Both the position numbers and the translations under genes were made by a program. From the IMG/VR virus record IMGVR_UViG_3300023180_000308, positions 1-28,162 of that record: a DNA stretch of 28,162 nucleotides. One strand, 5' to 3'. Positions within the stretch are counted from its first letter, which is position 1; each line of letters opens with the position of its first letter. The notes under the pieces were generated by a model that ran no database searches, was not told the origin of the DNA, and was given only the letters and a program-made list of their open reading frames with translations. Source of the stretch: a virus. Shown here one piece after another: positions 25,975 through 27,656 of this stretch.

Positions 25975-26429
25975 TGGACTTGGGAGCACCACCGGTACTG
26001 CCGGTTCTAAGGCTCCCTGAGCCCCCTGTTTTACCCCGTCCGGTACTGGAGGTACCACGAGCTACTTTACCCTCCTACAAACCGCTTGTAGTGCCTCCTA
26101 ACGACCTTCGACCGCCTCCGGGTGTGCAAGGTACGACACAATCGGATGAAGAACGGGAGGAGAAGCCAGCACCTAAGCCGGTAACTCCTCCTATTCCTAA
26201 GGTACCTGAAGTACCACAAATTCGTTACGTTGATATACCGGGTACAGATCTAACCGTACCTCTACCGAGTAACGAAATCTTAGCTACGGCTACAACGACA
26301 GCTACTGTCTCAGTTGCAGCCACCCTTACAGCTACTGCAGTCTTTAAAAAGACAGTTAGCGTTATTAAACCTATTATTAAGAAACTGCTAACAAAGAAAA
26401 ATGCACAAAACCAAGAGCTTCCTGAATGA
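25974..26429 (+). CDS. Proline-rich protein with C-terminal membrane segment (151 aa)
   Basis: The start is GTG at 25974, overlapping the previous stop; no ATG is nearby. Residues 1-90 are extraordinarily Pro-rich (LPEPPVLPRPVLEVP and similar), likely extended and able to span a gap. Residues about 100-122 (ILATATTTATVSVAATLTATAVF) are the only hydrophobic stretch and the tail is Lys-rich, so the C-terminus would be cytoplasmic and the Pro-rich part outside. Pro-rich envelope proteins occur in lysis cassettes, where Rz1 is Pro-rich, but this lacks a lipobox. It overlaps the holin candidate by 29 bases. Confidence 0.7.
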   Translation: MDLGAPPVLPVLRLPEPPVLPRPVLEVPRATLPSYKPLVVPPNDLRPPPGVQGTTQSDEEREEKPAPKPVTPPIPKVPEVPQIRYVDIPGTDLTVPLPSNEILATATTTATVSVAATLTATAVFKKTVSVIKPIIKKLLTKKNAQNQELPE

Positions 26430-26616
26430 GTTCTTTAGTGAAATCGTTAAGGCACTTGTACTTGTGTGGAGTGCTGGTGTGCTGACAGCTTCCTACATGG
26501 GAATGCTGCAGAAGATGGATCCCACTTTTGTGGCATCGTTGCTCAGCGGTACACTAGCTTCCTACGGGATTTCTCGTATGGATACAAAGAAATCTACTAC
26601 GGAACCACCTAAATGA
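26401..26616 (+). CDS. Holin candidate (71 aa, two membrane segments)
   Basis: The protein is short, with two hydrophobic segments (about residues 16-34, VKALVLVWSAGVLTASYMG; 43-58, FVASLLSGTLASYGIS) and a charged C-terminus (KKSTTEPPK). This fits a small class II-type holin, like T7 gp17.5 (67 aa), which lies between the tail fibre and small terminase as here. It would open the inner membrane to let the hydrolase encoded at 5586 reach the wall. No sequence motif proves it; size, topology and position are the evidence. Confidence 0.6.
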   Translation: MHKTKSFLNEFFSEIVKALVLVWSAGVLTASYMGMLQKMDPTFVASLLSGTLASYGISRMDTKKSTTEPPK

Positions 26617-26969
26617 AGAAACTACTTCTATTGGCAATGCTGTTTTCACCCGCAGTAGCAGCCGCACAGACTGTAACTCCTCAGTTTACTCAAGGTAGTA
26701 TGCAGTCCACCACAAATACTACTCAAACCATCACTGAAACTATTCGTACGGAAGTGTATGGTGGAGATTATAAATCATGGTCTGGAACCAACGTTACACC
26801 CAGCGGGGCAATTGCCGACCCAGCCACAACCTTTACAGTGACCAACGCCGGGGAACAGTTTCAACTGGAAACCGTAGTGAGGTCAGCAGGAATCATCGAG
26901 ACGATCGACACCGATCGAACCATCGACACAACTTCTGTTACTACCTCGCTGTCAGTCTTCTCTCAGTAG
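26613..26969 (+). CDS. Exported protein with signal peptide (118 aa)
   Basis: An N-terminal Sec signal peptide, MKKLLLLAMLFSPAVAAAQ, ends in a typical AAA|Q cleavage site. The mature part is Thr/Ser-rich and beta-like (TVTPQFTQGSMQSTTNTT, VYGGDYKSWSGTNVTPSG), with no cysteine. It ends TSLSVFSQ. The second half overlaps the 26777 ORF in another frame. The pair resembles a gene pair recurrent in cyanophages, from memory; function is unknown. It would act in the periplasm or outer membrane. ATG overlaps the holin stop (ATGA). Confidence 0.7.
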   Translation: MKKLLLLAMLFSPAVAAAQTVTPQFTQGSMQSTTNTTQTITETIRTEVYGGDYKSWSGTNVTPSGAIADPATTFTVTNAGEQFQLETVVRSAGIIETIDTDRTIDTTSVTTSLSVFSQ

Positions 26970-27427
26970 GACCGGCGTTCGCCAGTGAACCACAAGTTAA
27001 CAACACAGCTAACCCGATAGCAGCAGCTACAGGTAACGTAACGAACCAAGCTGTTCAATTTCAGAACAACGGTGCTCCGAGTAGACAACAGTTTACTGGG
27101 GGTAATTCGTGTAACGGTACAACAATGACAGTTTCTCCGTTTTACATGGGGAACGATACGTTGCCTCAAGGCTACACCCGTAATAACAACTACGGTATGC
27201 AGCTCAACTTCTCCGTTCCTTTAGATGGAGGAATGATTGAGCAGTGTAAAGCTATTGCTAAACGGCACGAAGAGAAACTACGACTTGATTATGAGTTAGT
27301 AAGAGCTTTGAAGTGTACAGAGATCATGAAAGCAGGTTTTACTTTTAGACCTGGATCTCGTGTAGAGGTGCTGTGTCACGACATCGTACCTATTGTGTCT
27401 TTAACAAATGAAGAAAAAGGCTACTGA
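26777..27427 (+). CDS. Exported cysteine-containing protein, start uncertain (216 aa as drawn)
   Basis: The only in-frame ATG is 26777, with GGTGGAG about 10 bases upstream, but this part lies fully inside the previous gene in the other frame. Residues 1-52 are His/Arg/Asn-rich and read like an out-of-frame shadow. Residues 53-69 (FCYYLAVSLLSVGPAFA, cleavage before SEPQ) look like a signal peptide core. From 70 onward the protein is clearly real: NNTANPIAAATGNVTNQAVQFQ, NSCNGTTMTV, PLDGGMIEQCKAIAKRHEEK, LKCTEIM, VLCHDIVP, with four cysteines that could form two disulfides in the periplasm. No in-frame ATG, GTG, TTG or CTG stands near the signal core. It overlaps small terminase by 20 bases. 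Confidence 0.7.
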   Translation: MVWNQRYTQRGNCRPSHNLYSDQRRGTVSTGNRSEVSRNHRDDRHRSNHRHNFCYYLAVSLLSVGPAFASEPQVNNTANPIAAATGNVTNQAVQFQNNGAPSRQQFTGGNSCNGTTMTVSPFYMGNDTLPQGYTRNNNYGMQLNFSVPLDGGMIEQCKAIAKRHEEKLRLDYELVRALKCTEIMKAGFTFRPGSRVEVLCHDIVPIVSLTNEEKGY

Positions 27428-27656
27428 GGATCAGTTTAACGAGCTTCACAATCTCGTGACTAAAGAGTTCCTCAATCGTATTAAATCCGGTGAAGCCACC
27501 ACACAAGACCTTAAGGCGGCGTGTGACTGGCTAGCCAAGAACGACATCAGCGGTGTTGCGTATGAAGGCAACCCGTTGGACAAACTAGCGACAGTCATGC
27601 CTAAGATCGACCCTGAAATGGTACAAAAGAGGCTATATGGCTCAAAAAACTTCTGA
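27408..27656 (+). CDS. Small terminase subunit (DNA maturase A), T7 gp18-like
   Basis: The 82-aa protein (T7 gp18 is 89 aa) would recognise concatemer ends and guide the large terminase. It is helical throughout with TEDQFNELHNLVTKEFLNRIKSGE, a TTQDLKAACDWLAKNDISGVAYEG core, and LDKLATVMPKIDPEMVQKRLYG at the end, a pattern common to small terminases of marine T7-like phages. The location between the holin region and the packaging cluster supports it; the large terminase presumably lies just beyond the window. It overlaps the gene before and the gene after by 20 bases each. Confidence 0.85.
   Translation: MKKKATEDQFNELHNLVTKEFLNRIKSGEATTQDLKAACDWLAKNDISGVAYEGNPLDKLATVMPKIDPEMVQKRLYGSKNF

Follow-up and report, generated by a model that had tools for sequence, protein, structure and literature searches.

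The closest described counterparts of the gene pair considered here are found in T4-like cyanophages, where they belong to the clusters T4-GC 235 and T4-GC 236. T4-GC 235 has been named within a conserved cluster of hypothetical proteins, and the passages on T4-GC 235/236 do not discuss an overlap of the two genes (PMC3037559). Overlapped two-component spanins of the P2 type are likewise encoded by out-of-phase genes, and 20 of the 91 phages in which a survey could identify no spanins infect Prochlorococcus or Synechococcus (PMC6139136). Signal sequences with a long n-region have been described in autotransporters (PMC2805444).

The overlap itself is already annotated in some cyanophages, and no paper describing it was found in the open-access literature. 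An earlier note on the locus had pointed out that the second protein has a signal peptide with no nearby start codon, for which it offered four explanations: a long n-region, a -1 frameshift, an unusual start codon or a sequencing error.

Results

The gene pair and its neighbourhood

The window, i.e. the whole stretch of 28,162 nucleotides that was analysed, is classed by sequence as a T7-like cyanophage on the strength of KBS-P-1A and S-RIP2, the named phages closest to it, which are approximately 75% identical over the region. It encodes psbA, a major head protein, tail and internal virion proteins, ribonucleotide reductase genes, a T7-type terminase small subunit and an HNH endonuclease. 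Gene 1 (26613..26969, plus strand) encodes a predicted exported protein of 118 residues, which is DUF6322-like, belongs to phrog_650 and corresponds to T4-GC 236 of the T4-like cyanophages. Gene 2 (26777..27427, plus strand), in the -1 frame relative to gene 1, encodes a predicted exported protein of 216 residues (phrog_848/phrog_1755; T4-GC 235, gp165). In T7-like phages a small DUF6450 gene and the terminase small-subunit gene flank the pair, here at 26401..26616 and 27408..27656 (DNA_Packaging_2), respectively, both on the plus strand. The DUF6450 product resembles a membrane protein by eye and, from its position, would be a holin candidate. The lysis and packaging genes of T7 occupy the matching region.

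The two genes overlap out of phase by 193 nt (26777..26969, plus strand). The -1 frame of gene 1 is uninterrupted from 26774 to 27427 and is closed by an in-frame TAA (26771..26773, plus strand) just 5' of the ATG (26777..26779, plus strand), which is made by the gene 1 codon pair TCA TGG (Ser-Trp). This is the only ATG, GTG or TTG in the gene 2 frame that would take in the signal core, the next one being well inside the mature protein. From 26933 onwards, across the gene 1 stop, the -1 frame reads FCYYLAVSLLSVGPAFA followed by SE, a hydrophobic core and then an AxA-type cleavage site. By composition and motif, the product has the features of a Sec signal of the SPase I type, namely a basic n-region, a hydrophobic core and an AxA-like site. 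The extended n-region of about 53 residues (26777..26935, plus strand) precedes the core and the AFA motif (26936..26983, plus strand), with cleavage predicted after 26983, and the mature part (26984..27424, plus strand) has four conserved cysteines. The n-regions of signal peptides are typically short, and one of 53 residues is unusually long. The AlphaFold2 model of the gene 2 protein was too poor for use (pLDDT 46.7).

The earlier note was correct that the only in-frame ATG, at 26777, is 156 bases 5' of 26933 within a gene in another frame, and that GGTGGAG (26760..26766, plus strand) stands ten bases before it. Its proposal that the protein starts near 26933 did not hold, as 26933 is the signal core, and GGTGGAG, which it had remarked on, is not a conserved ribosome-binding site in the relatives.

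Start site of gene 2 in T7-like relatives

In the first 12 relatives, both T7-like and T4-like, the -1 frame carried a core and cleavage motif across the gene 1 stop in every case, and in most of them the core had no start codon nearby. Scans of IMG/VR then gave 129 distinct pairs of the T7-like type, of which 96 remained once the nucleotide identity at the gene 1 end was limited to less than 92%. Positions are counted from the gene 1 end, so that -193 corresponds to 26777 in the window. Stops in the gene 2 frame inside gene 1 were compared with a null of synonymous resampling of gene 1, which draws on pooled and not on position-specific codon usage. From -193 to the gene 1 end, the 96 relatives had 21 stops as against approximately 353 expected, counts that come from related sequences and are not independent events. 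The depletion begins exactly at the left end of the overlap, and 5' of -193 the stops numbered 367 compared with 209 expected. This excess over 26613-26776 may come from codon choice that depends on position, or from stops being selected for.

The gene 2 frame stayed open through -193 in 89 of the 96 relatives, compared with 1.4 expected. At less than 70% nucleotide identity it did so in 14 of 18 (0.3 expected), so the signal holds despite the relatedness of the sequences. The codon at -193 was ATG in 80/96 and TTG in 7/96, while codon usage predicts 26.9 ATGs among the 89 open sequences. In seven sequences the frame is closed below -193; six of these carry ATG or GTG at -112, while the seventh, DSL-LC02, has ATG at -64. 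One sequence (L150) has an open overlap with no ATG, GTG or TTG, the only one of the podovirus type to do so; about 200 nt 5' of its gene 1 end, the Ser-Trp of gene 1 is replaced by Tyr-Tyr, which removes the start.

A Shine-Dalgarno-like sequence ahead of the gene 2 start was rarer than in the null (26/89 as against 51.5 expected), and the start region showed no lack of structure relative to the null (mean z -0.22). The deficit (26755-26777 in the window) might reflect selection against such a sequence inside gene 1.

The peptide encoded by the overlap was compared with synonymous recodings of gene 1 that also avoid stops. It contains more Arg and Lys (11.4 compared with 9.05 in the null), its core is more hydrophobic (1.33 compared with 0.57, exceeding the median of the null in virtually all sequences) and the core has fewer charged residues (0.23 compared with 1.03). 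An AxA-like motif lies just past the gene 1 stop in 93 of the 96 relatives. On these measures of composition, the overlap is under selection for signal-peptide character. The alignment of phrog_848 begins at residue 17 of the full gene 2 protein and therefore spans the n-region as well.

Initiation at an unusual codon close to the hydrophobic core would give gene 2 a short n-region of the normal kind, and freshwater relatives do begin at -64. However, the window has no ATG, GTG or TTG near the core and no in-frame CTG, ATT, ATC, ATA or ACG closer than about 100 nt to the stop. The stop depletion, which extends back to -193, and the richness of the overlap peptide in basic residues also argue against a start near the core, and we consider this explanation very improbable. 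An indel error that splits one gene into two halves would likewise account for the missing nearby start, which is all that favours it. Contigs and sequenced isolates numbering well over 100, diverged relatives among them, show the same two frames, and an IMG/VR contig, possibly from the same sample, aligned to 2,577 bases of the window without a gap and with a single mismatch. A sequencing error is thus extremely unlikely.

The second frame is under coding constraint and is bounded by a start codon, as is proper to an independent overlapping gene. Comparison of the relatives shows the start and the translated frame of gene 2 and the selection for a predicted signal peptide. Gene 2 is very probably an independent gene that is translated from ATG 26777, within gene 1 and in the -1 frame, by internal initiation of the ordinary kind.

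Start mobility and change of phase

In 24 of 27 non-redundant marine T4-like pairs the ATG of gene 2 is at -178 or -172, and in all 33 freshwater T4-like pairs it is at -64. Between the start and the gene 1 end no stops were found in either group, as against 87.0 (marine) and 56.8 (freshwater) expected, while the 60 nt upstream of the start contained 48 and 53 stops, respectively. The ATG is at -67 in P-SSP2 and P-SSP3, at -112 in SS120-1, at -208 in NATL1A-7, NATL2A-133 and 9515-10a, and at -166 in Syn33 and S-RIM8; phages of the DSL-LC type start at -64. The positions observed are therefore -193, -112, -67 and -208 in T7-like phages and -178, -172, -166 and -64 in T4-like phages.

At all nine start sites with codons inspected, the start was the NTG of a gene 1 Trp codon. 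An ATG in the -1 frame is possible only at NNA-TGN codon pairs of gene 1, and Cys occurs in mature gene 1 in just one of the 96 relatives, so Trp is nearly the sole option. Since such ATGs are in practice limited to Trp codons, the gene 2 start moved between Trp codons in evolution, and the length of the n-region would have drifted with it.

In P-SCSP2, gene 2 is in the +1 phase relative to gene 1 and has its own ATG at -56, followed by a canonical signal peptide, MTRSTLLALSLLCLSLVSNKARA followed by E. This +1 instead of -1 overlap in the same gene pair (contig L330, 631-1465) indicates that the phase changed or that the overlap arose twice.

These observations bear on a programmed -1 frameshift near the end of gene 1, which would yield a fusion of the two proteins. 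In its favour, nearly all relatives have the -1 phase, and most lack a start codon in the vicinity of the signal core. However, a late frameshift needs only a short open stretch, whereas here the open frame reaches as far as a start codon that is specific to each clade. Moreover, the earlier note had seen no X-XXY-YYZ slip site, and this proved right, since a heptamer in frame within the last 200 nt of gene 1 was present in only one of the 96 sequences. The fusion would also place a cleavable signal peptide in the middle of the protein, and in P-SCSP2, with its opposite phase and its own start, a -1 frameshift cannot account for gene 2. Frameshifting therefore has very little probability. Internal initiation with a long n-region suffices, and there is no need to invoke a frameshift, an odd start codon or a sequencing error.

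Among the four explanations listed in the earlier note, the comparative evidence thus favours the long n-region from 26777 and goes against the other three. By the note's own account, homologues in which this point carries a clear ATG would refute its observation, and these exist in part: the DSL-LC-type phages (-64), P-SSP2 and P-SSP3 (-67) and, in the other phase, P-SCSP2 (-56).

Gene 1

The N-terminus of gene 1 is a plain predicted cleavable signal peptide, MKKLLLLAMLFSPAVAAA followed by Q, and the products of both genes appear to be exported. Gene 1 matched the phrog_650 profile (2e-36) and, just below the Pfam cut-off, DUF6322 (2.4e-6), and all 30 aligned members matched DUF6322 / phrog_650. 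Its AlphaFold2 model is beta-rich and confident except in the signal peptide (pLDDT 82). No fold could be assigned to the model, which gave only weak matches to beta-hairpins of pore proteins and phage collars (best Foldseek E 1.2e-3, TM 0.27; VIA-align Z at most 3.4). Homology to the curli accessory protein CsgF was checked because curli genes occur in other marine phages (PMC9004378, PMC7029224), and the matches stayed at noise level: the profile E-value was about 0.1, the best segment had an i-Evalue of 3.5, and Pfam CsgF matched one of 30 members with E 0.19.

In T4-like cyanophages the gene upstream of gene 1 (phrog_564; OMP1 in S-RIM8) is weakly similar to the gene 1 family, with E-values of 4e-4 to 1e-3 against phrog_650 and 0.03 against DUF6322. 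Genes of phrog_564 with this similarity lie at 129-581 in L332, 113-694 in L012 and 390-836 in L010. The resemblance suggests a tandem paralogue of gene 1.

Annotation of gene 2

Gene 2 is annotated from the conserved start in Syn33, S-RIM8, MED4-213, P-GSP1 and P-SSP3; Syn33_161 and S-RIM8 gp165 begin at the internal ATG at -166. However, among the 22 records examined in which the overlap has the -1 arrangement, 17 place the gene 2 start elsewhere or leave the gene out: 14 start it inside or next to the mature part, S45-C4 omits it, and 9515-10a and NATL1A-7 start it at -364. Consequently, the signal peptide is cut off, or gene 2 is absent, in 15/22 records, which hides the predicted export of its product. 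A T4-like query found the mature gene 2 protein in 441 phage records. The protein is thus widespread in cyanophages, yet mis-started in most of the records checked, and the stop-depletion test offers a simple means to correct such starts.

Discussion

Ribosomes would initiate at ATG 26777 within gene 1, in the -1 frame, to give the gene 2 product, so that the first 193 nt of gene 2 would serve two proteins. Read in the gene 1 frame, the overlap would supply the second half of a beta-rich protein that is exported. In the gene 2 frame it would supply, for a Sec signal peptide cleaved after AFA just past the gene 1 stop, the long and basic n-region together with the greater part of the hydrophobic core. 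We infer from the sequences that initiation, export and cleavage actually occur in this way. The overlap would then be a secretion signal written into the alternate frame of another gene, with a start codon that is mobile between Trp codons.

The pair might also act as a two-component, spanin-like system that disrupts the outer membrane of the host during lysis. Its long overlap resembles that of the overlapped spanin genes, and in a T7-like genome the two overlapping genes for predicted exported proteins have a holin candidate on one side and the terminase small subunit on the other. Moreover, gene 1 is beta-rich in its model and gene 2 retains four cysteines. Such a role is attractive because 20 phages that infect Prochlorococcus or Synechococcus had no identifiable spanins in the survey (PMC6139136). 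The overlap points to an exported pair in phages of this kind. However, a lipobox was present in none of the 96 sequences of gene 1 or of gene 2, both N-termini look like cleavable signals, with no evident inner-membrane anchor, and in T4-like cyanophages the pair sits elsewhere, e.g. near psbA or a high-light-inducible gene. On balance, a spanin-like function is unlikely. It is quite unlikely, too, that the pair is an envelope complex that replaces spanins, with the overlap tying the synthesis of the two proteins together and the drifted length of the n-region tuning the timing of export.

The pair can thus be set beside three known systems. It resembles the P2-type spanins (PMC6139136) in having two exported proteins encoded by overlapping, out-of-phase genes, the second of which is missed or mis-started by gene callers, but differs in having neither a lipobox nor an evident inner-membrane anchor, and any role in lysis is putative. 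Gene 2 shares with the autotransporters (PMC2805444) a long n-region before an otherwise ordinary Sec core, but its n-region is an alternate reading of gene 1, with little conserved sequence and variable length. The pair also resembles T4-GC 235/236 (gp165/gp166) of the T4-like cyanophages (Sullivan et al. 2010, PMC3037559), which have homologous proteins, the same gene order and a -1 overlap. In the T7-like phages, however, most starts are at -193 or -112, the overlap takes in the hydrophobic core itself, and the annotations mostly shorten or omit gene 2.
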